Assembly: GCF_014197855.1 (NCBI RefSeq)
Contig: NZ_JACIGJ010000007.1
Coordinates: 124,001 to 188,000 of the forward strand
Origin: Roseospira marina
GTDB lineage: Bacteria > Pseudomonadota > Alphaproteobacteria > Rhodospirillales > Rhodospirillaceae
Direction of reading: 5' to 3'
Length of the DNA stretch: 64,000 bases
The position numbers and the translations under genes were made by a program. Of this stretch, positions 14,685 through 57,888 are shown in pieces. The notes under the pieces are model-generated. The model searched no databases. It saw only the letters and a program-made list of their open reading frames with translations, and was not told the origin of the DNA. How positions within the stretch are numbered: the stretch's first letter is position 1; every line of letters begins with the position of its first letter.

Positions 14685-15638
14685 ATGCGATTCCTGGATT
14701 TCGAACGCCCCATCGCCGAGCTGGAAGGCAAGATTGCCGAGCTCCGCCATCTCGGCGACGCCGATGGCATGAATATCGTCGAGGAGGTGGCGCGCCTTCA
14801 GCAGAAGGTCGAACGCCAGCTTCAGCAGACCTACGCCAAGCTGACCCCGTGGCAGAAGACCCACGTGGCACGGCATCCGGACCGGCCGCACTGCCTGCGC
14901 TACATCGACCGCCTGATCGAGGATTTCACCCCGCTGGCCGGCGACCGCAGTTTCGCCGAGGACCAGGCCATCATCGGCGGCCTGGGCCGGTTCCGCGGGC
15001 AGGCCGTGGTGGTGATCGGCCAGGAGAAGGGGCACGACACCGAAAGCCGGGTGAAGCACAACTTCGGCATGCCGCGCCCCGAAGGCTACCGCAAGGCCCA
15101 GCGCCTGATGCGCCTGGCGGAGCGGTTCGGCCTGCCGGTGCTGACGCTGGTCGATACGGCCGGAGCGTTCCCGGGCAAGGGCGCCGAGGAGCGCGGCCAA
15201 GCCGAAGCCATCGCCCGCGCCACCGAAACCTGCCTGGATCTGCGCGTGCCGTTGCTGTGCTGCGTGATCGGCGAGGGCGGCTCCGGCGGCGCCATCGCGC
15301 TGGCGGCGGGCAACGTTGTTCTGATGCTGGAACACGCCATCTATTCGGTGATCTCGCCGGAAGGCTGCGCCTCCATCCTGTGGCGCAGCGGCGACAAGGC
15401 GCAGGACGCCGCCGACGCCCTGAAGCTGACCGCGCAGGACCTGGACGCGCTCGGCGTGATCGAGGAGATTGTGAAGGAGCCGCTGGGCGGTGCCCACCGG
15501 AACCCGGAGGTCGCCATCGACGCCGTCGGCGACGCACTGGAGCGCCATCTGCAGGAGCTACTGCCGCTGTCCGGCGAGGCCGTGCGGGCCCGCCGCCGCG
15601 AGCGGTTCCTCGCCATCGGACGCCAGGGCCTGAGCTGA
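14685..15638 (+). CDS. accA: Acetyl-CoA carboxylase carboxyltransferase subunit alpha
   Basis: With AccD, transfers CO2 from carboxybiotin to acetyl-CoA, the first committed step of fatty acid synthesis. The 317-residue length is typical. Hallmarks are the N-terminal helical [17 protein letters not shown] segment, [51 protein letters not shown] and the oxyanion-loop [15 protein letters not shown] (about 196-210). The ATG at 14685 matches the usual family start. It stands alone, as AccA genes usually do, followed by an apparently separate ATC-hydrolase/amidohydrolase unit. Confidence 0.97.
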
Positions 15639-42946: not shown

Positions 42947-44017
42947 TTAGACCGCGTCGGGCCGCGCCGCGCCGCGGATCCGCTCCATCAGACGGGCCAC
43001 GTTTTCGGGCGGCGTCTGCGGCACGATGCCGTGGCCGAGGTTGAAGATATGCGGCCGCGTGCCGCACAGCGTGTTCAGGATATGGTCGGTCGCAACGTCC
43101 TGCGCATCCCCGCCGGACACGAGATGGATCGGATCGAGGTTGCCCTGAGTCACGGCCAGCGGCTGCACCGCCTCCGCCGCCCAAGCACAGGGCACGCTTG
43201 TGTCGAGGCTGACGCCGGTCACACCGGTCTCGCGCACGAACGTCGGATACAAGATTCCGGCCCCGCGTGGGAAGCCAATTACGGGAATGCCCGGCCGTTC
43301 GGTCTGAATACGCCGGACGATGCGGCCAATCGGCTCGACCACCCAGCGCATGAAATCGGCTTCGGGCAGGGCTCCGGCCCAGGTATCGAAGATCTGGATC
43401 GCCTCGGCGCCGGCATCGATCTGCGCGATCAGATAGTCGCCGGTCGCGGTCACCAGCGTATCGATCAGGCGGCCGAACAGATCCGGACGGCCGTAGGCCC
43501 AGGCCTTGGTGGTGGCAAAGTCCTTCGAGCCACCACCCTCGATCATGTAGGTGGCGACGGTCCAAGGCGCGCCGGCGAACCCGATCAACGCCGTCGTCTC
43601 CGGAATCGCCTTGGCGAGACCACTCACCGTCTCCAGCACCGGCCGCATGTGGTCGAGGACCCGGCCCGTGTCGAGACGGGCGAGATCAGCCTCATCTTTC
43701 AGGGCATCGAGCACCGGACCCTCGCCTTGCTTGAAGGCAACGTCCTGCCCAAGCGCGTGCGGCACCACCAGGATGTCCGAAAACAGAATCGCGGCGTCGA
43801 ACCCATAGCGGCGCAGCGGCTGAAGGGTGACCTCCACCGCGAAATCCGGCGTGTAGCAGAGATCCAGGAACCCGCCGGCATCGGCCCGGGTGGCGCGGTA
43901 CTCGGGCAGATACCGCCCGGCCTGCCGCATCAGCCACACCGGCGGCGGCCAGACCGCTTCTCCACCCAGGGCACGCAAGAAAGGTTTGGTGGACGGCGCA
44001 GGACGGGGCTGGGACAC
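42947..44017 (-). CDS. hemE: Uroporphyrinogen decarboxylase
   Basis: Decarboxylates uroporphyrinogen III to coproporphyrinogen III in the heme pathway. The 356-residue protein has the family signatures [20 protein letters not shown] (residues about 23-42, catalytic Arg), [50 protein letters not shown] and IFDTWAG. The GTG at 44017 was chosen because a GGAG site lies eight bases upstream and the family N-terminus begins here; upstream in-frame sequence extends into the origin region without homology. hemE flanks the chromosomal origin in several alphaproteobacteria, including Caulobacter, and does so here. Confidence 0.95.
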
Positions 44018-44120
44018 GGTCGAGACTCCGGCATAACGACGAATGGGCGAAAAGAGCGCGACATGCGAGCCGCACGCGAAGGCCGGCCCGGTTCGAAGCC
44101 AAGCCATGCCGGGTCCCCTT

Positions 44121-44150
44121 CTAAACAGATCATTCTTTAAAGAAAAGAGA
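44121..44150. other. AT-rich block, candidate DNA-unwinding element
   Basis: Thirty bases of about 73% A+T in a genome of well over 60% G+C, containing the palindrome TTCTTTAAAGAA. It sits beside the TCATCCCCA repeats, the usual arrangement for an unwinding element next to initiator sites. Confidence 0.5.
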
Positions 44151-44191
44151 TGGTGCTGTTGTGGGTCCCCCTGAAACCTGGGGATCCCCAT

Positions 44192-44212
44192 TCATCCCCA
44201 CGCTCATCCCCA
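44192..44212. repeat. Paired TCATCCCCA 9-mers in the origin region
   Basis: Two identical TCATCCCCA copies at 44192-44200 and 44204-44212, three bases apart. Further copies are TGGGGATGA (44341-44349, reverse), TCATCCCCG (44368-44376) and CCATCCCCA (44400-44408). Each differs from the DnaA box TTATCCACA at two or more positions, so they may be low-affinity DnaA sites or sites for another origin protein. Confidence 0.65.
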
Positions 44213-44246
44213 TCCGAGCGGGGTCGGGTTGAGCGCCCGCGAAGCC

Positions 44247-44255
44247 TGTGGATAA
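44247..44255 (-). promoter_or_regulatory. Perfect DnaA box (TTATCCACA on the minus strand)
   Basis: TGTGGATAA on the plus strand, an exact match to the consensus high-affinity DnaA box. Weaker look-alikes are TCATGCACA (44512-44520) and GGGGGATAA (44537-44545). Confidence 0.8.
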
Positions 44256-44265
44256 TTTTGGGGAC

Positions 44266-44513
44266 GACTCCGGCAGCGGATCCGGAGTCGTGTCCCGAGA
44301 CTCTTTGGAATCCCCGGGCGACTGTGGAAGCCGTGAATTCTGGGGATGAATCGGGGTGGCGGACGTGTCATCCCCGTTGTTCGAGGATCGGATGCCCATC
44401 CATCCCCATGGGGACAGGGGAGGGGTGACCGGACCGGTAAACCGGGGTAAAAAACACGGTGTGTGGCGAACGGGCGGGTTGTCCCCGGAGCGGTCTGAGT
44501 CGTCCACCGAGTC
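44266..44513. other. Cluster of seven GANTC sites (CcrM methylation motif)
   Basis: GACTC 44266 and 44299; GAGTC 44285, 44497 and 44509; GAATC 44308 and 44348 (first bases given); another GACTC lies at 44024 in the hemE leader. About one such site would be expected by chance in 248 bp. GANTC is the target of the cell-cycle methyltransferase CcrM in many alphaproteobacteria, whose origins are often rich in it. Confidence 0.7.
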
Positions 44514-44605
44514 ATGCACAGAGATATCCGCACGCCGGGGGATAAAGACCCGTGCGCAAGGCGGGTGCCATCACGGGTCTTGCCCACCGAGAGTTAGGTC
44601 CCATC

Positions 44606-45433
44606 GTGACCGAGCATCATCTTCATCTCGTTTCGGACGCCACCGGCGAGACAGTCAGCAGCGCCGTGCGCGCGTGTCTCGTGCAATTCGACGCGGTTCC
44701 GCGCGTGAAGCAGCATCTGTGGTGGCTGGTGCGAACGCCCGGTCAGATCCGTCGGCTGATCGAGGGGATCGAGGCCAATCCGGGTGTTGTCCTGTTCACG
44801 TTGATCGATCCGGAGGTGCGGGCGGTGCTGGAGGAGGCCTGCCGCGAGCTGAATGTGCCGTGCGTCTCCGTGCTTGATCCGGTCATGGAAACGCTGAAGC
44901 AGTATTTCCAGGTCGAGTTCCGCACCGATCCCGGGCGCCAACACACCATGGACGACGCCTATTTCCGCCGGATCGATGCCATCCACTACACGCTGGCGCA
45001 CGATGACGGGCAGCTTCTGGAGGGGCTTCGGGACGCGGATGTGATCGTGCTCGGGGTGTCGCGCACGTCCAAGACGCCGACCTGTATGTATCTGGCGAAC
45101 AAGGGATATAAGGCCGTCAACATTCCCTTGGTGCCGGACATTCCGGTGCCGCAGGTGGTGCTTGATCTGCCGGGGCATGTCCCGCTGGTGGTCGGTTTGA
45201 CACGAGAGCCGAAAAGTCTGTCCGATCTGCGCCGCAATCGGCTGCGCGTGATGCACGAGCCGATCGACAGCGACTACGCCAACGAGGAATTGGTGCGCGC
45301 GGAGGTCGCGCGGGCACGCCGTCTGTTCGCCCAGCGCGGGTGGCCGGTGATTGATGTCACGCGCAAATCCATTGAGGAGGTGGCGGCCGCCATCATGCAG
45401 CGAATCGAACAGGCGCGCGGGCGGGCGGAGTGA
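44606..45433 (+). CDS. ppsR: Pyruvate, phosphate dikinase / PEP synthetase regulatory protein (DUF299)
   Basis: A bifunctional ADP-dependent kinase / Pi-dependent pyrophosphorylase that inactivates and reactivates PPDK or PEP synthase. The 275-residue protein has HLHLVSDATGETVSSAVRACLVQF at the start, the P-loop-like GVSRTSKTPTCMYLANKGYKAVNIPLVP and LTREPKSLSDLRRNRL, all diagnostic. The GTG at 44606 was chosen because homology begins there; an upstream in-frame GTG at 44552 would add about 18 non-conserved residues. First gene right of the origin. Its stop overlaps the maf start by 4 bp, starting a tightly coupled run of genes. Confidence 0.95.
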   Translation: MTEHHLHLVSDATGETVSSAVRACLVQFDAVPRVKQHLWWLVRTPGQIRRLIEGIEANPGVVLFTLIDPEVRAVLEEACRELNVPCVSVLDPVMETLKQYFQVEFRTDPGRQHTMDDAYFRRIDAIHYTLAHDDGQLLEGLRDADVIVLGVSRTSKTPTCMYLANKGYKAVNIPLVPDIPVPQVVLDLPGHVPLVVGLTREPKSLSDLRRNRLRVMHEPIDSDYANEELVRAEVARARRLFAQRGWPVIDVTRKSIEEVAAAIMQRIEQARGRAE

Positions 45434-52796: not shown

Positions 52797-52812
52797 TGTT
52801 TCACGTGAAACG
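52797..52812. other. parS: parS site 1 (one mismatch)
   Basis: TGTTTCACGTGAAACG, 15 of 16 bases identical to the palindromic parS consensus bound by chromosomal ParB. First of four sites in 136 bp between the quinone reductase gene and mnmG. Confidence 0.92.
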
Positions 52813-52834
52813 GAGCCGCCAAGGTGGCTGGGGA

Positions 52835-52850
52835 TGTGTCACGTGAAACA
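52835..52850. other. parS: parS site 2 (one mismatch)
   Basis: TGTGTCACGTGAAACA, 15 of 16 bases of the consensus; the mismatch is in the left arm. It starts 38 bp after site 1. Confidence 0.9.
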
Positions 52851-52871
52851 GGGGTGGGGGGCCGATGGATC

Positions 52872-52887
52872 TGTTTCACGTGAAACA
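52872..52887. other. parS: parS site 3 (perfect)
   Basis: TGTTTCACGTGAAACA, a perfect 16-bp parS palindrome, 37 bp from the start of site 2. Confidence 0.95.
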
Positions 52888-52916
52888 AGGATGCGGCCGG
52901 AGTCCCGACGGTGCGC

Positions 52917-52932
52917 TGTTTCACGTGAAACA
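52917..52932. other. parS: parS site 4 (perfect)
   Basis: A second perfect 16-bp parS palindrome, 45 bp from the start of site 3 and 90 bp before the mnmG start, so ParB loading could also affect the mnmG promoter. Confidence 0.95.
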
Positions 52933-55120: not shown

Positions 55121-56029
55121 ATGGCCTCTCGTTCCCGACCCCCCGGCCCGGGTGCCCCGCGCGGGCGTCGCGGATCGGCGCCGCCCCGCGAACCGCATAC
55201 CCGCGCCGGCCGCGACCGCGCGTCGGCTGAGAGCCCGTCCCGGCCTCCCGCCCGACGGTCGGCGCCCGCGCTGGCTCTGCCCGCGCCGGAGGCGCGCCGC
55301 GCCGGTCTCGCGGCGGTGCTGGGCCGGTCGCCCGAGACCATCCCGGAGACGGCTCTGGATCGGCTGACCACGCTGCTGGAGCTGCTGGAGACCTGGACCC
55401 GGCGGATCAATCTGGTCGGGCCGGCCACCGTACCGGACGCCTGGGCGCGGCATGTGCTGGACTCGGCCCGCCTCGTGCCGCTGATCCCGCCCGGGACCAC
55501 CCGGCTGGCCGACCTGGGCTCCGGGGCCGGCTTTCCCGGTCTGGTGCTGGCGATTCTGGGGGCGTCGGACGGCGTGTCGGACGGCGCACCCCTTGATGTG
55601 CATCTGGTCGAGTCGGATCAGCGCAAGGTCGCGTTCCTGCGCGAGGCCGCGCGGGTGACCGACACCCCCGTTACCCTGCACGCCCAGCGGATCGAGGCCG
55701 TCGCCCCCCTTGAGGCCGCCGTGGTGACCGCGCGGGCGTTGGCACCGTTGCCGGATCTGCTGCCGTTGGTCACCCGTCACCTCACACCGGAGGGGGTCGC
55801 GCTGCTGCCGAAGGGCCGCACCGCGGCGGACGAATTGACCGCCTGCGCGGATCAGTGGATCATGCGCGTCGATCGGTGCCCACGTTCTGTCCCGCCCGAG
55901 TCGTCTGCTCCGTCCTCGCCCTCCGCCGCCGCATCGAACGCGGCGGGGAACGAGGCGGCGGACGAAACGCTCGGCTCCGGCCCCATCCTTATCCTTCGGG
56001 AGATCCGTCGTGTCGTCCCAGACACCTAA
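55121..56029 (+). CDS. rsmG: 16S rRNA (guanine-527 N7)-methyltransferase RsmG (GidB)
   Basis: Methylates G527 of 16S rRNA. The 302-residue protein is longer than typical (about 210): it has an extra basic, Pro/Arg-rich N-terminus of about 60 residues and an Ala/Ser-rich insertion near residues 260-285. The core shows LLETWTRRINLVGPATVPDAWARHVLDSARL, the AdoMet motif LADLGSGAGFPGLVLAIL and VTARALAPLPDLLPL. A start inside the basic tail is possible. The last 20 bp overlap parA. Confidence 0.93.
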   Translation: MASRSRPPGPGAPRGRRGSAPPREPHTRAGRDRASAESPSRPPARRSAPALALPAPEARRAGLAAVLGRSPETIPETALDRLTTLLELLETWTRRINLVGPATVPDAWARHVLDSARLVPLIPPGTTRLADLGSGAGFPGLVLAILGASDGVSDGAPLDVHLVESDQRKVAFLREAARVTDTPVTLHAQRIEAVAPLEAAVVTARALAPLPDLLPLVTRHLTPEGVALLPKGRTAADELTACADQWIMRVDRCPRSVPPESSAPSSPSAAASNAAGNEAADETLGSGPILILREIRRVVPDT

Positions 56030-56852
56030 TATCCCATCTGATGTTGCATCCGCCGGCCGTCCCGGGAGCCGCCCCCACATCCTGGCCATCGCCAACCAGA
56101 AGGGAGGCGTCGGCAAGACGACCACCGCGATCAACCTCGCCACCGCGCTGGCCGCCACGCGCAAGCGCGTGATGGTCATCGATCTGGACCCCCAAGGCAA
56201 CGCATCGACCGGCTTCGGCATTCCGCACGAAGGCCGCCGCCAGAGCACCTACCGCCTGCTGGCGGGAGAAATCCCCTTGGCGCGCGCCGCCCTGACCACC
56301 GAGGTCCCGGGCCTGACCTTGGTGCCCGCCGGTCCGGATCTGGCGGGCGCGGAGGTGGAGCTGGTGGATTCGGAACGCCGGGAGCACCGCTTGGCCGACG
56401 CGCTGGCCCCGGGGGTCGGGGACGCGGACGTCGACTATATCCTGATCGATTGCCCGCCCGCGCTCGGCCTGCTGACCATCAACGGGTTGGTGGCCGCCCA
56501 CGCGGTGCTGATCCCGCTGCAATGCGAGTTCTTCGCCCTGGAAGGCATCAGCCATCTGACCAAGACCATCGAGCGCGTGCGGGCGCGCTTTAATCCGGGC
56601 TTGACCATCCAGGGGATCGTCCTGACCATGTTCGACCGGCGGAACAACCTGTCCGAGACCGTGGCCGAGGATGTGCGCGGCTATTTCGGCGATAAGGTCT
56701 ACCGCACGGTGATTCCCCGCAATGTGCGGGTGTCGGAAGCGCCCTCGCATGGCAAGCCGGTGCTGCTGTACGACACCAGCTGTGCCGGGTCTAAGGCCTA
56801 CATCCAATTGGCGGGCGAGCTGCTCCGCCAGCACAAGACTTTGGCGGCGTAA
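56010..56852 (+). CDS. parA: Chromosome partitioning ATPase ParA (Soj)
   Basis: A Walker-type ATPase that moves ParB-parS complexes and so segregates the newly replicated origin. The 280-residue protein has the deviant Walker A ILAIANQKGGVGKTTTAINLA (both Lys), RVMVIDLDPQGNASTGFG (Walker A'), and YILIDCPPALGLLTINGL (Walker B). The C-terminal region (FDRRNNLSETVAEDVRGYFG, PRNVRVSEAPSHGKPV) is typical of chromosomal ParA. The short N-terminus, with no DNA-binding domain, marks the chromosomal (Soj-like) type. The GTG start overlaps rsmG by 20 bp; parB follows after 4 bp. Confidence 0.97.
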   Translation: MSSQTPNIPSDVASAGRPGSRPHILAIANQKGGVGKTTTAINLATALAATRKRVMVIDLDPQGNASTGFGIPHEGRRQSTYRLLAGEIPLARAALTTEVPGLTLVPAGPDLAGAEVELVDSERREHRLADALAPGVGDADVDYILIDCPPALGLLTINGLVAAHAVLIPLQCEFFALEGISHLTKTIERVRARFNPGLTIQGIVLTMFDRRNNLSETVAEDVRGYFGDKVYRTVIPRNVRVSEAPSHGKPVLLYDTSCAGSKAYIQLAGELLRQHKTLAA

Positions 56853-56856
56853 CCCG

Positions 56857-57888
56857 ATGGCGAAACGACAGACCCTGGGGCGCGGCCTGTCCGCCCTGTT
56901 CGGCGAGGACGACGGCCCCGGCGTGGCGCATGATGTGCCGGCCACTCCTTCGGCAGGCCCCCATTCGTCGGGCCCCCATTCGTCGGACCCCCGTTCATCG
57001 GACGACGGGCCGGATGCGGGTGCGCTGGCCGACGGCGAAACCGGGGCGGCCGGGGCACCGGCCGGACGCGGTGTGCGCCTGATCGCCGTTGACCGCCTGG
57101 CCCCCAGCCCCTACCAGCCGCGCCGGACCTTCGACGAGGCCGGCCTGGAGGAACTGGCGGAGAGCGTGCGCGCGCGCGGTGTGTTGCAGCCCCTGTTGGC
57201 GCGCCCGTCGGCGTCGCACCCCGGGCACTTCGAGATCGTCGCCGGCGAACGTCGGTGGCGGGCGGCGCAGCGCGCCGGCCTGCACGAGGTGCCGGTCCTG
57301 ACGCGCGACCTGACCGACCGCGAGACCCTGGAGGTCGCGCTGGTCGAAAACCTCCAGCGTCAGGATCTCAACCCGATCGAAGAGGCGGACGGCTATCGCC
57401 GCCTGATCGAGGAGTTCGAGCACAGCCAGGAGATTCTGGCCGAGGTCGTCGGCAAGAGCCGCAGCCACGTCGCCAACACGCTGCGTCTGCTCCAGTTGCC
57501 CAGCGGAGTGCGGGACATGGTGTCGGAAGGGGCCTTGAGCGCCGGCCACGCCCGCGCCCTGCTGACGCTCGACAATCCGACCGTGTTCGCGGAGGAGGTG
57601 GTCCGCAAGGGCCTGAGCGTGCGCCAGACCGAGGCGCTGGCGCGGCAGGCCGCCAGCCGGCCGGCCCAGACCCGGCCGCGCAAGGCGCGCGGGTCCGGCG
57701 CCGACGCGGCGGACAAGGACGCCGACACCCTGGCGTTGGAGCGCGACCTGGGCGCCCAGCTCGGCATGGCGGTGTCCATCGACCCGAAGCCGAACGGCGG
57801 TGGCGCGGTGACCATCGCGTGGCAGTCGCTGGCCCAGCTCGACGAGATCCTGGCCCGGCTGTCGGCGGGACCCTCGGCGGCCGATTGA
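56857..57888 (+). CDS. parB: Chromosome partitioning protein ParB
   Basis: Binds parS, spreads as a CTP-dependent clamp and stimulates ParA. The 343-residue protein begins AKRQTLGRGLSALFGE (the ParA-contacting N-terminus), then a repeat-bearing acidic linker (about 28-70), the CTP-binding N-domain (SPYQPRRTFDEAGLEELAES, ending with the GERRWRAA motif that binds nucleotide phosphates), the helix-turn-helix (QEILAEVVGKSRSHVANTLRLLQLP), and a C-terminal dimerisation domain. The four parS sites 4 kb upstream are its expected targets. The linker repeat is unusual. Confidence 0.97.
   Translation: MAKRQTLGRGLSALFGEDDGPGVAHDVPATPSAGPHSSGPHSSDPRSSDDGPDAGALADGETGAAGAPAGRGVRLIAVDRLAPSPYQPRRTFDEAGLEELAESVRARGVLQPLLARPSASHPGHFEIVAGERRWRAAQRAGLHEVPVLTRDLTDRETLEVALVENLQRQDLNPIEEADGYRRLIEEFEHSQEILAEVVGKSRSHVANTLRLLQLPSGVRDMVSEGALSAGHARALLTLDNPTVFAEEVVRKGLSVRQTEALARQAASRPAQTRPRKARGSGADAADKDADTLALERDLGAQLGMAVSIDPKPNGGGAVTIAWQSLAQLDEILARLSAGPSAAD
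56956..57000 (+). repeat. 15-bp tandem repeat in the parB linker
   Basis: Two identical copies of GGCCCCCATTCGTCG (56956-56970 and 56971-56985) and one diverged copy (56986-57000), encoding GPHSS GPHSS DPRSS in the acidic linker between the N-terminal ParA-contact peptide and the CTP-binding domain. Confidence 0.85.

Follow-up and report, generated by a model that had tools for sequence, protein, structure and literature searches.

Where does chromosome replication begin in alphaproteobacteria of the Rhodospira/Roseospira kind, and what are the repeats found at the candidate site? Both questions are raised by an intergenic gap between hemE and ppsR in a 64-kb window (the whole stretch of DNA that was analysed). 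The original prediction took this gap for the chromosomal origin (oriC) and suggested that its TCATCCCCA repeats could be a lineage-specific initiator array. According to the available text of PMC1914354, hemE and COG1806/DUF299 flank the experimentally mapped Caulobacter origin, Rickettsia has the same gene pair, and this arrangement is likely ancestral; the earlier remark that both origins lie beside hemE agrees with this source. Judged by titles and the beginnings of abstracts, no paper among the literature matches listed deals with a Rhodospira or Roseospira origin, and the present work places oriC to about 600 bp in a lineage without a mapped origin among those matches.

The window is part of a 264,436-bp contig (C7) of a 57-contig, 4.6-Mb draft genome, in which dnaA lies on a different contig (C10). 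The closest named relatives by PpsR are an uncultured Rhodospira (88%), Roseospira navarrensis (87%) and Rhodospira trueperi (86%), followed by another Rhodospira MAG (79%) and Roseospira visakhapatnamensis (78%). We use the term "genus members" for the window and five named PpsR relatives (L022-L026), each used once; the gap lengths of these five equal those of five same-genus genomes. A second set comprised 32 further hemE-adjacent gaps from 21 same-family genomes and 11 named loci, some of them of other families (e.g., Parvularcula). Counts exclude duplicates: seven loci were removed, as was L078, which equals L034, from a group of relatives in which no hemE was found beside ppsR. The class survey covered 144 genomes, of which 100 gave a ppsR match; the best 70 of these 100 by ppsR score were examined, two being skipped, and hemE adjoins ppsR in 63 of the 70 loci. 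Word enrichment was controlled with shuffles, reversed words, and the density over the available DNA in four genomes.

The gap is gene-free, has exactly the predicted coordinates and lies where gene orientation diverges. It is bounded by the GTG start codons of hemE (44017, minus strand) and ppsR (44606). Leftward follow hemE, hemH and hemJ; rightward ppsR, maf, aroE, tlyA, coaE and dnaQ. Pfam names hemE, hemH, hemJ (UPF0093), ppsR (Kinase-PPPase), maf, aroE and an S4/FtsJ protein (tlyA); NCBIfam matches to coaE, dnaQ, mnmG and a ParB-family protein are above cut-off, those to ParA and RsmG below. The hemE-ppsR pair and both start codons are kept in all six genus members. Flanking hemE and COG1806 (PF03618) genes define the hemE-COG1806 type of alphaproteobacterial oriC, and the gap has both. 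Its G+C content is 62%, compared with 70% for the window.

Table 1. Features of the hemE-ppsR gap and its surroundings (window coordinates; fractions out of six refer to the genus members)
Feature	Position	Strand	Remark
hemE, left boundary gene	42947..44017	-	PF01208, E 5.3e-118
Putative oriC, hemE-ppsR gap	44018..44605		588 bp; skew minima 43967 (GC), 44150 (TA), 44215 (keto)
A+T-rich block, candidate unwinding element	44118..44157		begins with CTTCTA in 6/6
Back-to-back pair GGATCCCCA(-)/GGATCCCCA(+)	44179..44190		
W-type box TCATCCCCA	44192..44200	+	
W-type box TCATCCCCA	44204..44212	+	12 bp from the 44192 box
Canonical DnaA box TTATCCACA	44247..44255	-	sole perfect one in the window; TCCMC core in 5/6
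W-type box TCGTCCCCA	44259..44267	-	12 bp from canonical box 44247
W-type box TCATCCCCA	44341..44349	-	TCCMC core in 5/6
W-like box TCATCCCCG	44368..44376	+	TCCMC core in 6/6
W-type pair CCATCCCCA(+)/CTGTCCCCA(-)	44400..44417		plus core in 3/6, minus core in 4/6 (by inspection)
W-like box TTGTCCCCG	44479..44487	+	core in 4/6
Seven GANTC (CcrM-type) sites	44266, 44285, 44299, 44308, 44348, 44497, 44509 (44266..44513)		
ppsR (COG1806/DUF299, kinase-pyrophosphorylase), right boundary gene	44606..45433	+	PF03618, E 1.8e-89
Three perfect parS GTTTCACGTGAAAC	52798, 52873, 52918 (52798..52931)		sole perfect parS of the draft genome
parA	56010-56852	+	below curated cut-offs
parB	about 56857-57888	+	above cut-off

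Nucleotide skew was analysed on the single 264-kb contig. The cumulative GC skew reaches its minimum about 50 bp outside the gap, essentially where it had been predicted, and rises after it; the TA and keto minima fall inside the gap. For 180 kb of the genus member G042, the gap contains the keto minimum (63152); the GC minimum (63510) misses it by about 0.3 kb, and the TA minimum lies elsewhere. Two other genomes count against oriC. G051, likewise of the genus, has its GC and keto minima on a flat plateau, some 12.5 kb distant from the gap, and its TA minimum is again in another place; in the single-contig but more distant relative G031, a sparse sample of 16 stretches of 20 kb gave no skew minimum at the gap. 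The skew of G031 is coarse and noisy, and mostly positive beyond about 2 Mb; its hemE-ppsR pair is at 1.15 Mb and its parS sites at 1.32-1.33 and 2.56 Mb. The origin of G031 may have moved, or its chromosome may have been rearranged. In the window, the parS sites are 8.2 kb from the gap, and parABS as a whole 8-13 kb from it.

The A+T-rich block, described in the original prediction as 73% A+T, has 74% over 44130-44152 and 68% over the 40 bp of 44120-44159, and by composition it is a candidate unwinding element. Its stability counts against oriC: at a length of 30 bp, five other stretches of the contig are less stable, and for longer stretches its rank is lower still. The complement of CTTCTA, TAGAAG, may act as DnaA-trio units at the edge of the block. 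Another stretch, GGGGTGACC...AAACCGGGGTAAAA at 44422-44455, is largely conserved across the six genus members and is not a DnaA box; it is possibly a promoter or a site of another protein.

The TCATCCCCA repeat is a DnaA box with A7 replaced by C, and its core, TCCCCA, is that of the published Caulobacter W-box, a class reportedly defined by Taylor et al. in 2011. Judged from their letters, the repeats are predicted W-type DnaA boxes and not a separate initiator array. The gap has three of the four exact copies of the window (44192, 44204, 44341) and three more with one mismatch (44259, 44368, 44400), i.e., six such 9-mers, one more than first counted. The perfect DnaA box at 44247 was correctly predicted, as was its being the only canonical one; the list of box-like sites in the gap has 14 entries, and the scarcity of canonical ones counts against the origin. 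A DnaA-box cluster (one canonical box and eight W cores) is present only if W-type sites count. W-boxes are characterised by several copies of TCCCCA at an origin, and here eight copies occur within 250 bp; the next best cluster on the contig has three, and 2000 uniform placements never gave more than four. A search for known structured RNA gave no Rfam match in the gap up to E 1, and one promoter-like match lies at 44229-44256.

The contig has two perfect TTATCCACA sites, one of them in the gap. The other (window position -8651, i.e., C7:115349; L008 about 15336-15360) belongs to a back-to-back pair, ATCCACAGGGGTGTGGATAA, which adjoins an unusually unstable, A+T-richer stretch. L008 has no tRNA, and the surroundings of this site (L008:14000-16500) gave no Rfam match.

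The six genus members together have 32 TCCCCA cores where dinucleotide shuffles give 5.0, and eight TCCACA cores against 1.4; W cores outnumber TCCACA in every one of the six. Among full 9-mers, TTRTCCCCA occurs ten times and TTRTCCACA once, and the relatives mostly have TTRTCCCCA in place of TCATCCCCA. At 13 box positions of the window we looked for a TCCMC core in the corresponding columns of the six-member alignment. Besides the positions for which Table 1 gives counts, the core is kept in four of six at 44179 and 44409, in three at 44192, 44204, 44259, 44400 and 44500, in two at 44182 and in one at 44537. Therefore several positions are kept while their letters drift between the canonical and the W type.

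No change in the specificity of DnaA was apparent in the stretches compared. DnaA was examined in 30 of the 53 genomes with a match. The stretches VARPRQ and GGRDHTTV are identical in 29 of these 30 loci, including the genome under study, and one locus was not recovered; the search pattern demanded G[GK][RK]DH, and that part is identical by construction. The genome also encodes two extra stretches resembling the DnaA C-terminus, C27:15044-15235 and C8:86365-86550 (the latter under the cut-off), and three of the five same-genus relatives have one extra copy of this kind.

Beyond the genus, exact TCATCCCCA is rare: there are four copies in the six genus gaps (three of them in the window), two in the 32 relatives and seven in the 63 class gaps. 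The TCCCCA core is widespread, and the lineage-specific array is rejected because of these two observations taken together; the expectation that the repeats would recur at hemE in relatives held for the core and failed for the exact 9-mer. The 32 relatives have 47 ATCCACA against 1.5 expected, 23 GTCCACA against 1.4, 26 ATCCCCA against 4.1 and 57 TCCCCA against 17.0. Two details of this set count against the W-type reading: ATCCCCA is second among the one-base variants, with GTCCACA ahead, and the TTA-like triplet before TCCCCA is weaker. ATCCACA and its 21 one-base variants were compared in the 63 class gaps, and among these 22 words ATCCACA (76 against 4.5) and ATCCCCA (56 against 6.8) reach the highest z-scores; by fold change GTCCACA (24 against 2.8) is slightly ahead of ATCCCCA (56 against 7.0). 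TCCCCA is found in 48 of the 63 gaps and TCCACA in 55, W cores being more numerous than R cores in 18. The triplet before TCCCCA (T.58, T.53, A.62) resembles that before TCCACA (T.64, T.60, A.58). The gap holds the densest 600-bp stretch of TCCCCA in the available DNA of C7, G051 and G031, and ties for this place in G042.

In 28 regions upstream of ppsR in relatives where hemE was not found in the available DNA (e.g., L042, L051, L072), ATCCCCA is at the top of the list with 28 copies against 2.5 expected, and TCCACA has 19 against 6.9. In these loci ppsR may have retained the origin beside it.

Seven GANTC sites in 248 bp had been predicted against about one expected. The number is right, and the expectation lies close to the mean of the contig (about 0.5 per 248 bp), yet shuffles that preserve its dinucleotides give 3.6 for the whole gap, which has eight sites including one at 44024 (p 0.019). 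The seven sites from 44266 on are the contig maximum, the next cluster having six (uniform-scan p = 0.0045). GANTC is found 31 times against 20.2 in the six genus members, none of them above twofold, 130 times against 59.3 in the 32 relatives and 158 times against 112.7 in the 63 class gaps. Thus the cluster is real, composition explains part of it, and the excess is modest in the genus. A test for a ccrM gene elsewhere in the genome had been proposed, and the genome does encode a CcrM-like methyltransferase; it scores 623 bits against NF050803, below the cut-off of 830, and a neighbouring frame resembles RNase HII by eye. A CcrM-controlled origin is possible, but the genus shows only a modest GANTC excess.

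GcrA and CtrA (375.7 bits, cut-off 350) are also encoded. The CtrA site TTAA-N7-TTAA is absent from the gap, and none of the six genus gaps has one even when one mismatch is allowed (shuffles likewise yield 0.0); gating by CtrA was rejected on this ground. The missing sites fit the available text of PMC8116508, according to which CtrA loss was harmless to growth and viability in two Rhodospirillales. The 63 class gaps have six full CtrA sites against 1.4 expected, never two per gap; the 32 relatives show no excess of sites with up to one mismatch (6 against 7.5). IHF-like sites number 24 against 9.3 in the relatives; in the genus none has up to one mismatch, and one match with two mismatches lies in the A+T block. 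The G-box TGATCCACA is absent from the gap and occurs once in the genus member L024.

Could the core be read by something other than DnaA? A lineage-specific initiator or regulator that is not DnaA might own TCATCCCCA, given that almost all box-like sites of the gap are non-canonical, that no shift of DnaA specificity was seen, and that the partly available sources report weak DnaA binding of W-boxes for Caulobacter only. We consider this improbable: the three bases 5' of the core are like those of DnaA boxes, aligned positions such as 44247 switch between TCCACA and TCCCCA, and the enrichment of the TCCCCA core extends far beyond the lineage. That this enrichment is a mere by-product of high G+C has the 70% G+C of the window in its favour, but it is hardly credible in view of the shuffles (5.0 against 32 observed in the genus). 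The reversed word ACCCCTA is found 0 times against 15 for ATCCCCA in the genus and four times against 56 in the class, and the W share is independent of G+C over the class (rho -0.02).

DnaA boxes are also found at promoters, and the gap could be only a DnaA-controlled divergent hemE/ppsR promoter, the true origin being some kilobases off near parABS. The G051 skew minimum, which lies between parS and the gap, and the promoter-like match within the gap speak for this, yet by all three skew measures the contig itself has its minimum in the gap or no more than about 50 bp from it, G042 agrees in two of three, and the gap is the sole cluster of the contig with more than three TCCCCA per 250 bp. 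We regard a displaced origin as very improbable. The predicted oriC is strongly supported, because the skew minima, the hemE/COG1806 flanks, parABS, the box array and the A+T block coincide here, and the gap is very probably oriC. For the full reading, an oriC of a Rhodospira/Roseospira-like alphaproteobacterium in which DnaA would spread from the canonical box over the W-type array, we give a probability of about 0.9.

For this oriC we infer the following order of assembly. DnaA-ATP would nucleate on the canonical box at 44247 and spread cooperatively over the weak boxes of the W type (YNRTCCCCA; the spacing is 12 bp in some cases, as at 44192/44204 and 44247/44259) toward the A+T block. The 40 bp of 44118-44157 would melt there and the helicase would be loaded, after which forks would depart bidirectionally. 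ParABS at 52.8-57.9 kb would then separate the new origins. The GANTC sites may offer a CcrM methylation mark.

The chances seem to us about even that TTRTCCCCA is a class-wide ancestral second class of DnaA sites, independent of CtrA and not a Caulobacter invention, which has nearly replaced canonical boxes in this genus with no apparent change in the base-reading stretch of DnaA. No paper on W-boxes outside Caulobacter is among the literature matches listed, judged by titles and the beginnings of abstracts. The genus offers a natural comparison: its six species have mostly weak boxes and no CtrA site in their gaps, and CtrA is encoded (one genome checked). This bears on whether weak DnaA sites time initiation generally or permit CtrA gating, and the class survey leans toward general timing.

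The origin is well supported but ordinary. It is of a known kind, and the new point looks to be that W-type boxes are widespread in the class. Unlike Caulobacter crescentus Cori, the gap has no full CtrA site, no G-box, one canonical TTATCCACA and no IHF-like match with up to one mismatch; it has eight TCCCCA cores, compared with five W-boxes in Cori. The available texts add that TCCCCA, the W-box core, is weakly bound by DnaA (PMC4285127) and that W-boxes need cooperation with G-boxes (PMC4468827). From the Rickettsia origin the gap differs in its 62% G+C and in lacking a full CtrA site; the available text of PMC1914354 mentions two to seven CtrA sites predicted in Rickettsia and none in some related bacteria. 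According to the same text, both origins share the hemE and COG1806 boundary genes with the gap. Cori also resembles it in an A+T-rich stretch of about 40 bp and in its DnaA sites, of which a few are strong and several are weak and of the W type, TCCCCA (PMC1914354 and PMC4285127, as available), and the genome has, like Caulobacter, ccrM-like, gcrA and ctrA genes.
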